Part shown: positions 23,293-48,661 of the stretch, piece after piece | Layout of the letters: every line of letters begins with the position of its first letter | Position numbering within the stretch: the first letter of the stretch is position 1 | Assembly (NCBI GenBank): GCA_017554325.1 | Contig: JAFZIP010000002.1 | Span: forward strand, 1 to 64,000 | Length of the DNA: 64,000 nucleotides | Direction of reading: 5' to 3' | DNA from: Bacteroidales bacterium | GTDB taxonomy: Bacteria; Bacteroidota; Bacteroidia; Bacteroidales; WCHB1-69 | Made by a program: the position numbers and the translations under genes | Notes under the pieces: generated by a model | What the model was told of the DNA's origin: nothing | Database searches by the model: none | What the model saw: only the letters and a program-made list of their open reading frames with translations

Positions 23293-23374
23293 GCCCGGAT
23301 GGCGGAAGTGGTAGACGCGCACGTTTCAGGTGCGTGTGCCGAAAGGCGTGCAGGTTCAAGTCCTGTTCCGGGCA
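23293..23374 (+). tRNA. tRNA-Leu (anticodon CAG)
   Basis: The acceptor arms GCCCGGA and TCCGGGC (23367-23373) pair, with discriminator A and no encoded CCA. The long variable arm (class II) and the D-arm GCGGAAGTGGTAGACGC are typical of tRNA-Leu. The anticodon stem is CACGT/GCGTG around loop TTCAGGT, giving CAG. The T-arm is GGTTCAAGTCC. Its last 15 bases are part of the integration repeat, so the 3' end is now supplied by the mobile element. Confidence 0.97.
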
Positions 23375-23436
23375 CTGAAGGATTTTGCGAGTATCTGTAA
23401 CACAGAGAATTGCAAAATCCTTTTTCTTTTATATTC
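23360..23436. repeat. attL: 77-bp tRNA-end direct repeat, copy 1
   Basis: It covers the last 15 bases of tRNA-Leu and the terminator-like hairpin behind it (AAGGATTTTGC with GCAAAATCCTT, then a T-run). It is identical over 77 bp to 46478-46554 and differs at five positions from 48917-48987. A tRNA 3' end repeated in direct orientation is the classic product of tyrosine-recombinase integration. Confidence 0.92.
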
Positions 23437-23527: not shown

Positions 23528-24895
23528 TTAGAACAGCCCATCTACGGCTGCACTTGCCACACTTTCTGCATATTCGTCCAACGATAGTTTTACATATTTG
23601 AAGAACATAGCTTCTGTCTTGTGGCCGCTTACACTCATCATCTGTGGAATCGTAAACTTTTTGGATAGATACATATTGGTAATGCATGACCGTCTTGCCG
23701 TATGGCTTGCAACCAATTCCCATCTTGGTTTTAATGGATAACCTTGTTCATCGTATTCATATAACACTTTCCCTTTCTTTTGGGCATTTGACTCGGCTCT
23801 TTTCTCTTTTAATGTCAATATGGTTCTTTCCTTCTTTTGAAGACTTGGAACAGATTCCGACAGATTCTTACAGATTTCTTTGATAGTCCGATTGAGGTTC
23901 TGATCCCATATCTTGGGAACATTGTAATCATATTTCTTCAATAATACTTCCAACCTGTCGTCCATAATGGGAACGACCACGACTTTGGCGGTTTTCTCTT
24001 GTTTAAGTCTGATTACTTTTGTACCATTATGTGTAAAACCAATATTTGCCTTTTTAATTCTACTATAATCTGAAAATCTCATTCCGGTAAAGCAACCAAT
24101 GAGAAAAACATCTCTAACTTGTTCTTGAAAACCGTTCAATGGCATTTCATACAATGCCGACAATTCTTCCTTTGTTAGATATATCTTCTTCGCTTTGTCA
24201 TCCTCTGTGATTTTTGGGCTCCTCAATAGACTGCAAGCGATATGGTTGGTGTGAAGACCTTGCCTCTCTGCAGCACCAATCAGTGTTTTGAAGAGACTGA
24301 TATGTTTATCAAGGGTGTATTTCATATAACCTAAACTTTCCAAATAGGAAATATACCTATCCGCTAATGCTTCGTTTATGTTGTCCCATTCAAAAGGCAT
24401 GATTTTGTAAAAATCCAAAAATACTCGTCTGAACTGTTGCCAATTTTTAATGGATTCCTTGGCATATTTCCCCTTTGTCGAAGTCCTGATGGTACCGTTT
24501 TCTATCCCATGGACATGCTCAATGACAAAGTTTTTAATGTTCGTTTTCTTATTATACTCAATGTCTTTTTTCAGAGCTTCGGCGCGTTTCAGCCCCTCTC
24601 TCTTATCTGCGAGTACGACATTTTCAATAACTTCATCAAGGTTGTCCTTGGTCAGTCTATGATGTCTTCTCATATCTGTGATGGCATCTTCGATCAAGGC
24701 AATTTTCTTGCTAATACCTTTCTTGTTGAGATAATTTTTCTGTTTTCTCTCGGACTTTGATACTTCATTCCACTCTGCGGCGTCAACCGTCATTAGCAGA
24801 TTGCACCAATAGGCAGATCCCCCAATTTTCAATCGGACATAAAGAGGGTGTTCGCCGTCAGTCTTCTCGGTTCTTAATACTAATTTCATTAACAT
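23528..24895 (-). CDS. Tyrosine recombinase (integrase) of element A
   Basis: The 455-residue protein has an N-terminal arm-binding/SAM-like region (about 1-230) and a C-terminal catalytic domain. Catalytic residues seen are Arg273 (FTGMRFSDYSR), His398 and Arg401 (HTARRSC), His425 (SGHKT) and Tyr434 (FFKYVK); the beta-hairpin lysine is probably Lys298 or Lys301. All active-site positions are intact, so it should be functional. It is the Bacteroides conjugative-element type of integrase by layout. Its 3' end lies about 90 bp from attL and its start overlaps the excisionase-like gene by 7 bp. Confidence 0.95.
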   Translation of the reverse strand: MLMKLVLRTEKTDGEHPLYVRLKIGGSAYWCNLLMTVDAAEWNEVSKSERKQKNYLNKKGISKKIALIEDAITDMRRHHRLTKDNLDEVIENVVLADKREGLKRAEALKKDIEYNKKTNIKNFVIEHVHGIENGTIRTSTKGKYAKESIKNWQQFRRVFLDFYKIMPFEWDNINEALADRYISYLESLGYMKYTLDKHISLFKTLIGAAERQGLHTNHIACSLLRSPKITEDDKAKKIYLTKEELSALYEMPLNGFQEQVRDVFLIGCFTGMRFSDYSRIKKANIGFTHNGTKVIRLKQEKTAKVVVVPIMDDRLEVLLKKYDYNVPKIWDQNLNRTIKEICKNLSESVPSLQKKERTILTLKEKRAESNAQKKGKVLYEYDEQGYPLKPRWELVASHTARRSCITNMYLSKKFTIPQMMSVSGHKTEAMFFKYVKLSLDEYAESVASAAVDGLF

Positions 24896-25209
24896 ACAAT
24901 TTTAACGAGACCGTTAGATTCTGCATTCAACACATCCTTCATGGAGTATATTTTCCGTCTACCACCGAGAGGTAAAGGTTCAATAATCCCTTCCTTTTCC
25001 CAATTGTAAAGTGTACTTTTGGAAATGTCCCATCTTTCACAAAGTTCATCTGCGTTCAATCTTTTGTCTTCAATGTTCATAGTGAACATTTTGTCGGTGA
25101 CGACTTCTTCAACAACCTCTCTGACCCATTCTTTGAAGGTGTATTTCAAACCCTCAATCACGTTTAACCAACACTTGGGGTCAATATGTACCAATTCATT
25201 ATTGTTCAT
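24889..25209 (-). CDS. Excisionase-like HTH protein
   Basis: The 106-residue protein has a C-terminal MerR/excisionase-type winged helix: LNADELCERWDISKSTLYNW (about residues 50-69), then EGIIEPLPLGGRRKIYSMKDV. This is the helix-turn-helix (HTH_17) pattern of Bacteroidetes element excisionases. The N-terminal 45 residues are acidic and helical. It overlaps the integrase start by 7 bp, so the two are translated together, which supports a directionality-factor role. It could also repress the operon. Confidence 0.8.
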   Translation of the reverse strand: MNNNELVHIDPKCWLNVIEGLKYTFKEWVREVVEEVVTDKMFTMNIEDKRLNADELCERWDISKSTLYNWEKEGIIEPLPLGGRRKIYSMKDVLNAESNGLVKIVC

Positions 25210-25518: not shown

Positions 25519-26160
25519 TTAGGCGATATCCACGAACTTTCTCTTAATTCTCTGAACGGTACTGATGCCCACACCTTCGTTTTTGGCAATCATCCTGATT
25601 GGGTATCCCTTTCGTAATTGCTTGATTACTCCGGCATATTCTTCTTGCAGTTTCTCGTCTGGTTTCTTATAGCCGACCTTACGACCGACCTTGCCGCCTT
25701 CGGCTACATACTTTTCCTTGCCGCTATTCAATCTGAACTTTATATTTTCCCTCTCCATCTGAGCACAGGTACCAAGCACGGCGATGAAGATGGTCAGAAA
25801 CGGGTGTTCCTTGCCATCGGCGTTGAAGATTGACAACTGCTCTTTCTGGAAATAGACATTGAGATGGTGTTCCTTACAGCGCTGAACGTTCGCCAGCACA
25901 TCATCAACATTACGACCGAGGCGGGAAAGTTCAGAGATGAGAAGCGTGTTAATGTCGTTGCTGAAACAGTAGTCAAGGCATTCCGTCAGGACGGGACGAT
26001 CCTTGGTCTTCTTTGCACCGCTGATATGCTCTTCAAATGTCTTTTCTACGATAAGAGAATTGTCGATGGCATACTTCTCCAAATCTCTAATTTGTCTTGT
26101 GGTGTCCTGACGATCTCCAATTGAAGACACCCTTGCATAAATGGCTGCTTTCATATTCAT
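25519..26160 (-). CDS. Serine recombinase (resolvase/invertase family)
   Basis: The 213-residue protein is a full small serine recombinase. The catalytic Ser12 is in AAIYARVSS, and the domain has ISELSRLGRNVDDVL, FLTIFIAVLGTCAQMERE and the C-terminal HTH GYPIRMIAKNEGVGISTVQRI. It resembles Pin/Hin or Tn3-type resolvases rather than large serine integrases. In element A it could resolve dimers or multimers or invert a segment. TTGAACACA repeats directly upstream (26191-26246) are a candidate binding site. No inverted pair flanking a switchable promoter was found. Confidence 0.92.
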   Translation of the reverse strand: MNMKAAIYARVSSIGDRQDTTRQIRDLEKYAIDNSLIVEKTFEEHISGAKKTKDRPVLTECLDYCFSNDINTLLISELSRLGRNVDDVLANVQRCKEHHLNVYFQKEQLSIFNADGKEHPFLTIFIAVLGTCAQMERENIKFRLNSGKEKYVAEGGKVGRKVGYKKPDEKLQEEYAGVIKQLRKGYPIRMIAKNEGVGISTVQRIKRKFVDIA

Positions 26161-27450: not shown

Positions 27451-27875
27451 TTCTTTTTTCTTTATATAGTATTTATGGCGGTTACGGCAAAAATTATTCC
27501 CTGAAAAAATGGCTCATTTGTAATAATATAAAATAAAGGAAAGAAAGTGGATGTCGAAAATCGGCATTTTCTGTATCAACTATAGACCACGATATAACAT
27601 AATAAAAAGACAAAATCCTGAATTTCAACAAATTGAATTTAATCGACAGGAGAGGTGTATCCATTTTGCAGTATGTAGCACGGAAGTGGGGTGATGTCCT
27701 CAAACACACTTTTTTTTCACTTTTGTTATATTTACTATAGTCGGGGATGATACCGATCACAATCATTTGACTTCATTTACCGGCAGGACCCATCTGCCGA
27801 ACAAGATTATGAAACTTAACCCTTGCATAGGTGGGAATGGGTCTCCCCCTGTGTGGGGGTTTCTTTTTTAAAGGA
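27451..27875. other. Intergenic region between divergent genes of element A
   Basis: AT-rich DNA without a convincing gene. Near its right end a GC stem CCCCC/GGGGG with a 5-nt loop (27845-27859) is followed by a T-rich run to 27869. This is a terminator- or attenuator-like hairpin ending 7 bp before the ATG at 27876. Such a site directly before a replication-type gene may limit its expression. Confidence 0.45.
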
Positions 27876-29303
27876 ATGAAATATACCATTGACAAGAAAT
27901 TCAGAGGCCGTATGTTGGTGGGCGACACCACCTACGACTCAAAGCCGCCAAAATGGATGGGCGGGAAGATCAAGAACGAGGTTTGCAGGGAAGTCTTCGT
28001 TACCAACAGCACGCTGGCCGAAATGATAGGTGACGGTCTGCCCTACTGCCCTGCCGAAAAGAATCTTGAGGATGTCTCAACCAGCGACTATATCTGCATT
28101 GACATAGACTTCTCGACAGAACCGATGGACAAGTTCGTCTCCGCTCTCGCTTTTCAACCGACAATCTACTACGAGACCGAGTCTAACAACACCAACTATT
28201 CAGTGGGGAAATCTCTAAAGCACTTTAATGACAGAGACCACAAGTACCGTTTCAGGCTGATTTACGCTTTGAAAACGCCAACCACTTCCGTCGGTGAGTA
28301 CATTGCCGCCTTCGACTATATCGTCAAAGAGAATAATATTGACGAGGAGTTAGTGGATGGTAGAACCGCTAACCAGTTATACTTCGGAAGCTATAATTGC
28401 AAATGCAGAGTAACCGACTTTGTCTATGAGTTGCCAGAGGAATATAAAGAAAACATAGAAAAGGAAGAGAAAACAAAAAAGTGTCAAAAGCAAACTAATA
28501 GTCTACCAACCAATACATATACATTTACTTCTGACACTTTTTTTGAGAAGGAAGTCCTGTCTTCTTTCTTCAAGCTGGAATACTTGGAGTTCCTTGAATG
28601 GTATGACAGGCGGCACGGAAGACCTTTCCTGCTTGTTGAGACCGAATATGTTCAGTCAGAAGAGGACGAGAGGAAAAAAGTGCTGAAGGATAAGTACTAC
28701 ACCGTACCGGTAAAAAAGTACTGGGACAAAGAAATGAAACGCTTTGTCACCGAGAAATGGAATGACGGAGAGCAAAGACACAAAAGAATCTTTCTTTCCG
28801 GTCTCATTCTAAGAAAGCTGAACAAAGACATTGACCACAATGTTATGCTATATGCTATCGTCAACACACTTCTGTGCCACTATGATCTTGTTGATCCTGA
28901 CGGGAGCATCAAATTCACACACAAGTATATCATAGACTTAGTGGACAGGATAATGAAAGCCGGGATAAGGGAAATGAAGGAAGTCAAACATTCTTCGTTC
29001 AAGGTGAGCGACAAATATTGCAGAGAACATAGCGTGAGCAAAAAACAGGTGCTGGGTAGCCTTCTCGGCGAGAAGAACAGAGAAAGGAAAGAAGAGCGAT
29101 ATAGAGAAATAGACTGCTTCTTTGACCCTTCCCTAACGTTGGGTGACGGGAAGAAAATCACTCATAAACAATGGATAGGAATACTTGAAGAGAATGGTGT
29201 TAAAGTGAGCATTGAAACATTCAAGAGATACTTGAAAGAAAGAGGGTTTTCTAAAACAAACAAAGAAAGGAAAAAAAGTGTCAGAAGCAAACTAATAGTC
29301 TAA
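27876..29303 (+). CDS. Primase-like replication protein
   Basis: The 475-residue protein is read from the ATG at 27876; the open frame extends to 27831 but runs through the hairpin there. Its N-terminal half resembles archaeo-eukaryotic-type primase domains: YICIDIDFS (Asp-x-Asp), HKYRFRLIYALKTP and VDGRTANQLYFGSYN in order (residues about 73-190). A linker made of the repeat at 28475 follows, then a C-terminal region with possible wHTH character (GKKITHKQWIGILEENG). The assignment is by motif order only. The gene ends inside the second repeat copy, just after an A7 run; a -1 shift there would add 53 residues. Confidence 0.6.
   Translation: MKYTIDKKFRGRMLVGDTTYDSKPPKWMGGKIKNEVCREVFVTNSTLAEMIGDGLPYCPAEKNLEDVSTSDYICIDIDFSTEPMDKFVSALAFQPTIYYETESNNTNYSVGKSLKHFNDRDHKYRFRLIYALKTPTTSVGEYIAAFDYIVKENNIDEELVDGRTANQLYFGSYNCKCRVTDFVYELPEEYKENIEKEEKTKKCQKQTNSLPTNTYTFTSDTFFEKEVLSSFFKLEYLEFLEWYDRRHGRPFLLVETEYVQSEEDERKKVLKDKYYTVPVKKYWDKEMKRFVTEKWNDGEQRHKRIFLSGLILRKLNKDIDHNVMLYAIVNTLLCHYDLVDPDGSIKFTHKYIIDLVDRIMKAGIREMKEVKHSSFKVSDKYCREHSVSKKQVLGSLLGEKNRERKEERYREIDCFFDPSLTLGDGKKITHKQWIGILEENGVKVSIETFKRYLKERGFSKTNKERKKSVRSKLIV
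28475..28541. repeat. 67-bp palindromic repeat, copy 1 (inside the primase-like gene)
   Basis: It matches 29272-29338 with three differences, 797 bp apart. Its ends GTGTCAAAAGCAAA and TTTACTTCTGACAC form an imperfect stem around a loop of about 29 nt. It is read through in frame, giving CQKQTNSLPTNTYTFTSDTF. Confidence 0.85.
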
Positions 29304-29338
29304 CAACTAATACATATACATTTACTTCTGACACTTTT
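29272..29338. repeat. 67-bp palindromic repeat, copy 2 (at the end of the primase-like gene)
   Basis: The arms GTGTCAGAAGCAAA (29278-29291) and TTTACTTCTGACAC (29321-29334) pair at 13 of 14 positions. The copy begins in an A7 run and contains the stop codon of the primase-like gene in a frame shifted relative to copy 1. In the frame used by copy 1 it stays open to TGA at 29435. Confidence 0.85.
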
Positions 29339-29606
29339 CCCGAGAACGAAGAAGACGAATGTTCTGCCGGTCAGGACAGACAGCTCAGAGAGATTGTTGG
29401 GAGAATCCACGGCACCGATGAGTTCAAAAAGAAATGAGCGTGATTATTTTTGTTATGTTTATAATAAAGAACCTCAGATGAAGAAACCGAGACATCGGTG
29501 GTATGGACGACCCGAAATTTATGACAGTCGGTTTTGTGTAGTTAATACTTATAACAAGAAATATAAAGTGTATTATCAATTATTTTTTAACCAATTTTTT
29601 AGACCA

Positions 29607-30305: not shown

Positions 30306-30456
30306 TAACGCGCCCAGTTTGTGGCACTGTCATAAGTGGGTTTATATTGACACAGATGAACAATATAAAAAGGGGAAAAATAGATACTAACATTTTGAAT
30401 ATTCATTATTTACAATTTAGGACCTTATGGTGTATTTAGGTTAACCAACTAAAATT

Positions 30457-31059
30457 ATGGCAAATTGGTGCTTTAACGAATACGCAGTGAAGGCTGCAAC
30501 AAAAAATGTCCTCAACTTTGTGAATAGAGGACTTGAGAACCTTGGCTTGGAACCCAAGGACAATATCAAAGACGCCATCGAAAGTCTTTGGAATGACGAC
30601 AACAAAGTGTTGATGTCCTCTTTCATTGTTTCTGAGACATTTAAGAAGTTGGGAAGTGATGTTGGGAACGAAGAAGGAAGACCTGCTTTAGAGTCAAATG
30701 AAAAAGTCGGATTGAGTTCTTACCTCATTGACGATGCCACTGGAAACACTACCATCTATATGTGGGGACATACCCCTTGGCGTTTCCCTTATCATTGGCT
30801 GGCATATGTCAAGAACACATATGACTTAAAAGTCTATTTATGTTCACACGAAGAAGCAGATGCCTTTAACGTCTATGGGGAAATCGACAGTTTGGATTTT
30901 GAATTTGCCGAAAAGTACTTTCTCGAAAATGGCCCCGACTGGGATGACTATGGTGATGAGCGTGTGGTAGAGTATTATGAGGCCTATTTCAAATGCAGCA
31001 GTGACCTGAAGGAAGAATTATTAGCACGGTTCAAAGACTGTGTGGAAGGAAGGATGTAG
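30457..31059 (+). CDS. YubB/Api92-like protein
   Basis: The 200-residue protein begins MANWCFNEYAVKA, the hallmark start of the DUF1281/YubB ferredoxin-like (Api92-like) family found on plasmids, phages and conjugative elements. Later parts include WGHTPWRFPYHWLAYVK and NGPDWDDYGDERVVEYYEAY, matching the family's mixture of aromatic and acidic residues. It is cytoplasmic with no membrane segment. Its function is unknown in the family as a whole. Its presence supports the mobile nature of the region. Confidence 0.6.
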   Translation: MANWCFNEYAVKAATKNVLNFVNRGLENLGLEPKDNIKDAIESLWNDDNKVLMSSFIVSETFKKLGSDVGNEEGRPALESNEKVGLSSYLIDDATGNTTIYMWGHTPWRFPYHWLAYVKNTYDLKVYLCSHEEADAFNVYGEIDSLDFEFAEKYFLENGPDWDDYGDERVVEYYEAYFKCSSDLKEELLARFKDCVEGRM

Positions 31060-46351: not shown

Positions 46352-46554
46352 TTCTTGGTCACCTTTTGGTCACCATTTTGGCGATTCCTTGGTTTATGAT
46401 GGTATTATTGATGTGTTGGAATGTCCGTAACATCACGAATTACAAGTATATACATCCAAGGAGCCGTAAAGCCAGCGGTCCTGTTCCGGGCACTGAAGGA
46501 TTTTGCGAGTATCTGTAACACAGAGAATTGCAAAATCCTTTTTCTTTTATATTC
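46352..46554. repeat. Element A right end: arm sites plus attR core
   Basis: The arm-like box pair TTGGTCACC x2 lies at 46355-46374 and the 77-bp core at 46478-46554. The 126 bp before the core align with 48791-48916 at roughly 90 percent by eye. The core is identical to attL at 23360-23436, so A and the flanking core recombined recently or remain interchangeable. Confidence 0.85.
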
Positions 46555-47293: not shown

Positions 47294-48661
47294 TCAGAAC
47301 ATCTCTAATGCCGGTAAAATAACTGCATCATCCGGAGCGTTGTTATGAAGAAACATACAATAATAAACAGGCATATAAGTAACGCCATTCTTCCTATACA
47401 CTTGTCGCTCGTTAGAGAAGACGATTGCCCTCGTGATGCCATATTCCGGAGTGTTCAAGAATTTTGTAAGTGCGCTGTGTTCCGTATAGTCTTTTCCCGA
47501 TTTGATTTCCAAAGGCAAAACCTGGAGGCTGCTGTAGTCATCGATAAGGAAATCCACCTCACCCTTTTGCTTATTATCGTAATAATGCAGTTTGAATTGA
47601 TGGGCGGCGAGTTCCTGTGCAACTGCCGACTCGTAAACCGTTCCGAGATTGATGCTGCGAATGTCCTGTAACACAGCATTCACATTAATACCATAAAGCA
47701 AATAGGTCAGCAATCCAACATCGTTAAGATAGAGCTTTATCAGTTTCTTCTGCTGTGACTCGGCCAAAGGGAAGCGAGGATTACTGATGGCCAACACATC
47801 CAAAGCAACACCGGAATTGGTCAAATATTCAAACTCGTCAGCATAATCGGAAAAATGCTTTCCTGTTTTATTTTCTATTTTATTGTAAACAATGCGTTTT
47901 TTTCTGTTTTCAAGATTGCTAGGAATAAGGTCGTAGATAAGTCGAATCTTCAGTTTGTGGTTCTCATCATATTGAGACGCATCAATGCGGTAAAGTTCGT
48001 GGATGTCCTTGTGAACATTCCTTACACGAACCATATTTCTGTCTTCCAAATACTTGTTAACGGCTTCTGGCAATCCACCCACCAATAAATAGTATTGGAA
48101 ACGCTTCAACAGCATCTCGTGTGTACTTTCATCCAAACTCTCCTCACGTTCAAATGAATTGCGAATGTGTTTTATCCAATCCTTGCTGACACCTGTGGCC
48201 CATAAGAACTCCTCGAAATCGAGAGGATACATCTGCTCAACCGTGATGCTGCCAATCGGAACGGATGGCGTTTCCGACAAGGCAACGCCCAGTTGTGAGC
48301 CGCTGGCAATAAAGCGGTATTTCCCCTCTAGATTTAGAAACTTCAGCATAGTCATCAGATGGGGATAGCTTTGTATTTCATCGAGAAACACAAGTGTATT
48401 GGTCTTGTCACCCAAGGGCGTTGAATAATAATTTCCAAGACGCATATACAAGTCGTTTGTGGTCTTTACACCTGCAAAAACCTGATCGCCCTCCTTGTCC
48501 TCCTTAAGGTTGATTTCCACGAAATGTTTGAATAGACGATTCCCCACATAGCGGACAAGATAAGACTTTCCAATCTGCCTGGCACCATTTACCAACAGAA
48601 TTTTGCCGGGTTCATTGGTCAGGAAATGTTCAATATACTGTGTGAATTTGCGCTCTAACAT
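47294..48661 (-). CDS. AAA ATPase with DUF4143 domain
   Basis: The 455-residue protein has an N-terminal AAA_14 domain with Walker A GARQIGKS (26-33), Walker B TLVFLDEIQ (about 90) and RFIASGSQLG, and a C-terminal DUF4143 domain (about 200-420) with QELAAHQFKLHYYDNKQKGEVDFLI, a restriction-like nuclease fold pattern (E-V-D-F then E-I-K). The family is common and duplicated in Bacteroidetes and its function is open; links to DNA or to defence have been suggested but not established. It is the only long gene of element B and has a promoter with three operator-like repeats upstream. Confidence 0.88.
   Translation of the reverse strand: MLERKFTQYIEHFLTNEPGKILLVNGARQIGKSYLVRYVGNRLFKHFVEINLKEDKEGDQVFAGVKTTNDLYMRLGNYYSTPLGDKTNTLVFLDEIQSYPHLMTMLKFLNLEGKYRFIASGSQLGVALSETPSVPIGSITVEQMYPLDFEEFLWATGVSKDWIKHIRNSFEREESLDESTHEMLLKRFQYYLLVGGLPEAVNKYLEDRNMVRVRNVHKDIHELYRIDASQYDENHKLKIRLIYDLIPSNLENRKKRIVYNKIENKTGKHFSDYADEFEYLTNSGVALDVLAISNPRFPLAESQQKKLIKLYLNDVGLLTYLLYGINVNAVLQDIRSINLGTVYESAVAQELAAHQFKLHYYDNKQKGEVDFLIDDYSSLQVLPLEIKSGKDYTEHSALTKFLNTPEYGITRAIVFSNERQVYRKNGVTYMPVYYCMFLHNNAPDDAVILPALEMF

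Follow-up and report, generated by a model that had tools for sequence, protein, structure and literature searches.

Two copies of a palindrome lie within one replication-type gene

Why should a replication-type gene carry the same palindrome twice within its own coding sequence? The question is raised by a gene located at positions 27876–29303 (+ strand) of the 64-kb stretch of Bacteroidales DNA analysed here (hereafter, the window), which in its present frame encodes a protein of 475 amino acids with a DxD motif, an RxR motif and a C-terminal helix-turn-helix. The two 67-nt copies of the repeat occupy positions 28475–28541 and 29272–29338, with a start-to-start offset of 797 nt; they are identical at 64 of 67 positions (the mismatches being at positions 13, 32 and 37), and each is palindromic, its inverted arms measuring about 20 nt (complementarity in copy 1, 90%). 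The duplicated hairpin repeat of 67 bp, with an offset of 797 bp and three differences, described in the original prediction is thus borne out. Between the copies, likeness reaches 80 nt at 91% and drops soon beyond the palindrome. More specifically, the palindrome of copy 1 (the 67-nt repeat plus two T, 28475–28543, + strand) lies in linker 1, which leads from the N-terminal domain to the next helical domain, with GTGTCA (28481) and TGACAC (28532) as its cores; that of copy 2 (29272–29338, + strand) lies in linker 2, which joins the helix-turn-helix to the C-terminal tail, with the same cores at 29278 and 29329.

On the top strand, the folding of copy 1 was equalled by one of 200 dinucleotide shuffles and that of copy 2 by none of 200, and on the bottom strand no shuffle out of 200 equalled either copy. 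Similarly, synonymous-codon shuffles of the coding sequence never matched the palindrome score (0/300 for each copy), and a 33-nt repeat pattern allowing up to three mismatches was matched twice in the window and never in 100 shuffles. Two Rfam matches, both far under the gathering scores, were set aside as chance. Note that single core motifs also occur upstream of the gene (GTATCA and TGATAC, at 27573 and 27748) and that a single TGACAC (TATTGACACAGATG) lies about 0.9 kb downstream of it, at 30348.

Palindromes translated in frame inside genes are familiar from the Rickettsia palindromic elements, and the presence of near-identical copies at non-homologous places of one gene, with a likeness that fades just outside the palindrome, would fit two in-frame insertions of a mobile element of this kind or of a very short MITE. 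However, the search for other copies that had been suggested, once run, returned only these two in the 2.56-Mb genome, even with a looser pattern. In contrast to Rickettsia palindromic elements and MITEs, the palindrome of the window is thus not dispersed in the genome but linked to one gene family; moreover, distant relatives use the same linkers, and linker 1 also exists in a form devoid of the palindrome, in the relative L019. These observations do not bear out the idea of an inserted element tolerated by the protein, and we hold a mobile palindromic element to be highly improbable.

The encoded protein

The gene product was initially labelled primase-like, a label whose basis is the motifs alone. 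All ten aligned relatives keep the DxD and RxR motifs without exception, a feature that would suit a primase-type domain. The window protein belongs to no Pfam family at an E-value of 0.001, to no PHROG family at the cut-off used and to no NCBIfam family; Pfam at E-values up to 1 yields a weak helix-turn-helix signal alone. When a profile of the relatives is compared with the PDB, the top matches are helix-turn-helix structures, with weak E-values (0.0025–0.022) against the helix-turn-helices of RpoN and Sleeping Beauty. A structure model predicted from two sequences is poor (mean pLDDT of 40.5), except for a block of pLDDT 62–78 at the helix-turn-helix region (approximately 29088–29256, + strand), which is both the best-modelled part of the protein and the sole one with a weak PDB match. 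Finally, kinship with AEP proteins is unsupported, since an hhalign comparison with two AEP-PriCT proteins returned a probability of 0.8%. Given this comparison and the poor structure model, the primase assignment stands unconfirmed and we refer to the protein as replication-type.

The gene is preceded by a terminator-like hairpin located just 5' of the start codon (27839–27868, + strand), separate from the repeat, which may have a role in expression control. Within the leader (27800–27876), a CTCCCCC-TGTGT-GGGGG hairpin is followed by a T-rich stretch, and a rival pairing, GCATAGG/CCTGTGT, overlaps the hairpin. This leader looks like a transcription attenuation device for copy control. A comparable leader precedes L019 and the remnant of the gene found in genome G026 (L007).

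The reading frame is broken at copy 2

Copy 1 is translated in frame within the gene, as had been proposed. The annotated stop codon does lie inside copy 2, as also proposed, but it is not in the frame in which copy 1 is read; its position there results from a broken frame. Read in the frame of copy 1, copy 2 encodes KCQKQTNSLTTNTYTFTSDTF and coding goes on to a TGA at 29435–29437. The continuation beyond the palindrome (29339–29437, + strand) is a C-terminal tail homologous to the tails of the relatives L019 and L020: none of 5000 shuffles scored as high against either. Because of this homology, we ascribe the stop inside copy 2 to a frame break in the A-run found at the start of the copy (29271–29277, + strand), where the frame is broken relative to the tail. 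Candidate causes of the break are mutation, slippage and an assembly error.

An A-rich slippery run together with a hairpin could constitute a programmed −1 frameshift signal yielding two forms of the protein. By direct reading, copy 1 has A AAA AAG in the zero frame and linker 2 of L019 has A AAA AAC, both of which we take to be slippery motifs, and the tail that follows copy 2 is indeed homologous coding sequence in another frame. However, the L009 group (described below) and L020 are devoid of such a run, the stem overlaps the A-run so that a spacer is absent, and a plain frameshift mutation or an assembly error accounts for copy 2. Such a signal therefore has very little likelihood.

Relatives of the gene and specificity of the palindrome

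Relatives of the gene are rare. They were found in two of 40 genomes of the genus and two of 104 of the family, these being in each case the own genome and one remnant; in the order sample, five of 393 genomes gave a match at an E-value of 0.01, two of which are spurious; and in family f79, relatives occur in 12 of 190 genomes. The intact genes of the near groups are L009 and L014–L018, which are about 28% identical to the window gene, and L019, its closest intact relative (45%). L020 corresponds to a C-terminal half, and L021–L024 are distant relatives. The decayed remnant in G026 (L007, L045) was left out of the counts; L013 and L028 duplicate L009, L032 and L039 duplicate L019, and L025–L027 are additional pieces of L022–L024. 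The tblastn matches in G353 and G206 (L010, L011) were dropped, as they are located in unrelated genes. Neither the gene nor the repeat was found in phage and plasmid databases at the DNA or protein level, and there was no result from genome contigs queried with the window protein alone or from viral contigs queried with the protein, the alignment or the full repeat. The palindrome and the gene family are unreported in the literature searched, a search mostly without reach into subscription journals.

The specificity of the palindrome was assessed with an exact arm pattern, AAAGTGTCAN{28,48}TGACACTTT, with a gap of 28–48 nt. In the order set, two of 393 genomes contain it, namely the own genome (two copies) and G444 (one A+T-rich place); in f79, four of 190 do, three of them in this gene and one, G650, at three places outside the gene. 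The backwards-control pattern matched one genome in each set. Altogether, the exact pattern is almost restricted to this replication-type gene family. The G650 boxes (AAAGTGTCAC...GTGACACTTT; L052, L053 and L054) are on three contigs, and the ORFs around those of L052 and L054 look like ordinary chromosomal genes. The arm pattern also matched 60 viral stretches. A profile search of the ORFs from these stretches and from the other pattern loci gave one weak match (E-value of 0.046), the protein not being encoded there; the 60 viral matches reflect chance or something else.

The palindrome is conserved at the nucleotide level

The proposed comparison of homologues was carried out by determining the best inverted repeat with a span of 58–70 nt in each gene, for 14 sequences (12 loci plus the window in two pieces). 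This repeat lies in linker 1 in L009, L014–L018 and window copy 1, and in linker 2 in L019, L020 and window copy 2. Thus, the close subfamilies have their best repeat in one of the two linkers in all ten sequences (nine genes), with spans of 62–69 nt; in the four distant genes, the best 58–70 nt repeat is outside linkers 1 and 2. Synonymous shuffles reached the observed score in none of 300 trials for L017 and L018, one for L015 and three each for L019 and L020; the corresponding numbers for L016, L014 and L009 (23, 51 and 53 out of 300) are not significant. Six genes hence show a strong palindrome signal, whereas that of three closely related ones is weak. Linker 1 of L019, though present, has no palindrome (best score of 6).

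The reading frame of the arms is informative. The 5' arm core, AAAGTRTCA, is codon-phased (Lys-Val-Ser) in L009, L014–L018 and L020, and off that phase in both window copies, so that the full core AAAGTRTCA...TGAYACTTT recurs among relatives in another reading frame; the phase of the 3' arm is kept in window copy 1. Identical letters in different frames point to selection on DNA or RNA. Less favourable to this view, synonymous positions within the arms of the L009 group are conserved in 54 of 64 comparisons (84%) versus 61.5% overall, a level that is only moderately high, being equalled by 20 of 411 same-shaped windows. Given these data, in which arm pairings across the palindromes were counted by script, we consider it very probable that the palindrome is a real, conserved nucleotide element. 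Note that codons ~386–396 of the L009-group alignment (LYDYQLTDKEN) display about 100% synonymous identity, versus 61.5% overall; this run is possibly a second embedded DNA element.

If the palindrome were instead the by-product of a protein-level repeat, the two linkers would share a functional peptide ending in [SN]DTF. The 3' arm does encode (S/N)DTF, in the same frame for window copy 1 as for the L009 group, and DDTF in L020; in addition, of the three positions at which the window copies differ, two are, by direct reading, silent in the frame of copy 1. On the other hand, the core of the 5' arm is kept across two reading frames, linker 1 of L019 lacks the DTF peptide as well as the palindrome, and linker 1 has very low confidence in the structure model, with neither helix nor strand predicted anywhere in it. 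What is observed is therefore the opposite of a peptide shared by all homologues with no conservation of the DNA repeat, the outcome named in the original prediction as speaking against it: the DNA arms are kept and the frame of the 5' arm differs. A protein-level origin of the repeat is thus very improbable.

A putative origin embedded in the linkers

In five of the six members of the L009 group, GTRTCA is repeated three or four times within 350 nt 3' of the gene, between convergent gene ends, a number equalled by 2–9 of 2000 shuffles. No such repeats are present within 350 nt 3' of the gene in the window, L018 or L019, and shared 10-mers, screened as candidate iterons, showed no general pattern. 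The favoured explanation, to which we give about an even chance when judging from the sequence data, is that the palindrome is an in-gene replication origin or an initiator-binding site of the element, i.e. a nucleotide-level control site within the element's own replication-type gene, probably part of the origin. It is favoured because of the nucleotide-level conservation, the use of the same linkers, the similar span and the iteron-like cores found 3' of the gene in five of six L009-group members. Points that weigh against it are that no known replication domain is recognised in the protein, that the palindromes of L009, L014 and L016 do not stand out from synonymous shuffles, and that the iteron-like repeats are missing 3' of the gene in the window and L018. 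Of the two readings offered by the original prediction, an origin or a tolerated insertion, the former has more support.

We infer that the product of the replication-type gene binds the palindrome, and that the element excises and replicates. The site would comprise two inverted half-sites with the core AAAGTRTCA, their centres separated by about 53 bp, around an A+T-rich stretch; the helix-turn-helix of the gene product would contact the half-sites, whereby the DNA between them would be distorted or opened, and the opened site would allow replication to start on the excised element. The two linkers would be suitable places for such a site, as the protein presumably tolerates a fixed DNA sequence there, and the near-identical sites of the window, 797 bp apart, would have arisen by copying or conversion of one linker from the other.

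A comparison of the recognition stretches gives a hint as to the binding partner. In L019, the core consists of other letters (CGACAT) with the palindrome geometry kept, and its recognition stretch reads ITLRSFQRY versus VS[VI]xT[IFL]KR[WY] in L009, L014–L017 and the window; L018 has an intermediate stretch, ISLSTLKRW, yet retains the core GTGTCA. This is only a hint, coming from one lineage (L019), that the recognition helix and the core may change together. Note that the L019 sequence ACGACATCA recurs 3 nt past its stop codon.

Some other product of the element could also bind the half-sites, such as a regulator or the small serine recombinase, with a role in resolution or repression for example. 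A relative of the window's small serine recombinase is encoded close to the gene in all six L009-group loci, which share the GTRTCA core. However, GTGTCA is absent from the surroundings of the recombinase gene in the window and in L038, and the spacing of the half-sites (~53 bp) is far above that of a resolvase dimer site, which is about 28 bp long. The integrase is an unlikely binder too, since integrase types differ among the elements. Altogether, we deem it quite improbable that another protein is the partner.

One feature counts against a double-stranded site: in seven of nine members, folding is stronger for the bottom strand than for the top strand, with, for example, z-scores of −6.7 versus −4.0, −7.3 versus −5.2 and −6.8 versus −3.0 (L009, whose arms are the same as those of L014, was left out). 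This asymmetry would be expected if the bottom strand formed a single-stranded hairpin acting as a priming or strand-initiation site, an antisense RNA or an in-gene antisense terminator. Consistent with this, A.C mismatches, which correspond to wobble pairs on the bottom strand alone, outnumber G.T mismatches (about nine versus two, shared ones being counted once), and T-runs follow the bottom-strand stem in the window and L019, as in a terminator. However, the mismatch bias is weak (9/11, one-sided ~0.03), the strand bias is missing or reversed in L016 and L020, the stems of the L009 group are devoid of T-runs and retain a 2x2 A.A mismatch, and the core letters are conserved between relatives that are 28% identical, which a hairpin does not necessitate. 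We consider a bottom-strand hairpin, the strongest competitor of the origin reading, rather unlikely. A top-strand intrinsic terminator is rejected, as linker 1 is located mid-gene and the L009-group arms have no T-runs.

In a strand-specific version, bottom-strand single-stranded DNA would be recognised by the protein to prime synthesis, with the hairpin copied between linkers and its letters co-changing with the DNA-binding helix. This combination we regard as unlikely; if it is true, initiation by helicase-less replication proteins becomes directly testable.

Comparison with known replication systems

Origins inside initiator genes are already known in a few plasmid families. In the available part of its description, the origin of pSK41, the nearest parallel in function, is placed in linker-coding DNA of rep, and the linker is reported to be deletable (PMC5703833). 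The likeness between RepA_N plasmids such as pSK41 and the present locus, where the sites are putative, resides in repeated sites located mid-gene in linker-coding DNA. However, the proteins are unrelated, as the RepA_N domain (PF06970) is absent from the window protein according to Pfam; the sites form an inverted pair spanning 62–69 nt where pSK41 has four Rep boxes; and here two linkers are used, in an integrative element of Bacteroidales. In the repABC plasmid p42d, oriV is located within the repC coding sequence, which, as far as the available part of the source goes, contains no iterons and no repeats over 8 bp (PMC3155836); here, in contrast, the palindrome is the main feature. By Pfam, the window protein matches neither the pSK41 family nor the repC family.

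The AEP-PriCT-1-HTH initiators, which lack a helicase according to the accessible part of PMC5862659, are a lead for the window protein, tempered by the negative search for PriCT_1 (PF08708), found neither in the window protein nor in its own genome. As regards ColE2 and RepE/RepS, the window protein possibly has the same order, with a DxD domain, a helical domain, a C-terminal helix-turn-helix and no helicase, but it has no PriCT_1 or AEP family match. In pAMbeta1, the origin is immediately 3' of repE, outside the gene, in the part of its description available.

Should the origin reading be true, the present locus would add an independent example, from integrative elements of Bacteroidales, relying on an inverted pair, an uncharacterised protein family and either of two linkers. 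Paired half-sites in linker DNA would then provide a ready origin marker for elements with unstudied replication, and a single DNA stretch would be under two simultaneous constraints.

The surrounding mobile element

The replication-type gene is preceded by genes, all on the − strand, that encode a tyrosine integrase (23528–24895), an excisionase-type helix-turn-helix protein (24889–25209) and a small serine recombinase (25519–26160). On its left, the element is bounded by the 3' end of tRNA-Leu(CAG), whose gene occupies 23293–23375; this 3' end is repeated at 46478 and 48916; the left attachment site (23360–23410, + strand, the end being approximate) comprises this 3' end and the bases that follow. 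In this respect the element resembles NBU1-type mobilizable elements, which likewise integrate at a tRNA-Leu 3' end. Since this 3' end occurs three times (23360, 46478 and 48916), a second segment, of 2.4 kb, seems to follow the element; it contains a gene (47294–48661) that reads as ATPase-like.

Finally, a tRNA-Leu locus of another genome (L044 in G527) contains an integrase and an excisionase of the window type (77% and 68%, respectively) beside a distant relative of the replication-type gene and a relative of the window ORF 30457–31059 (40%), a mix of genes which suggests that modules are exchanged between elements.
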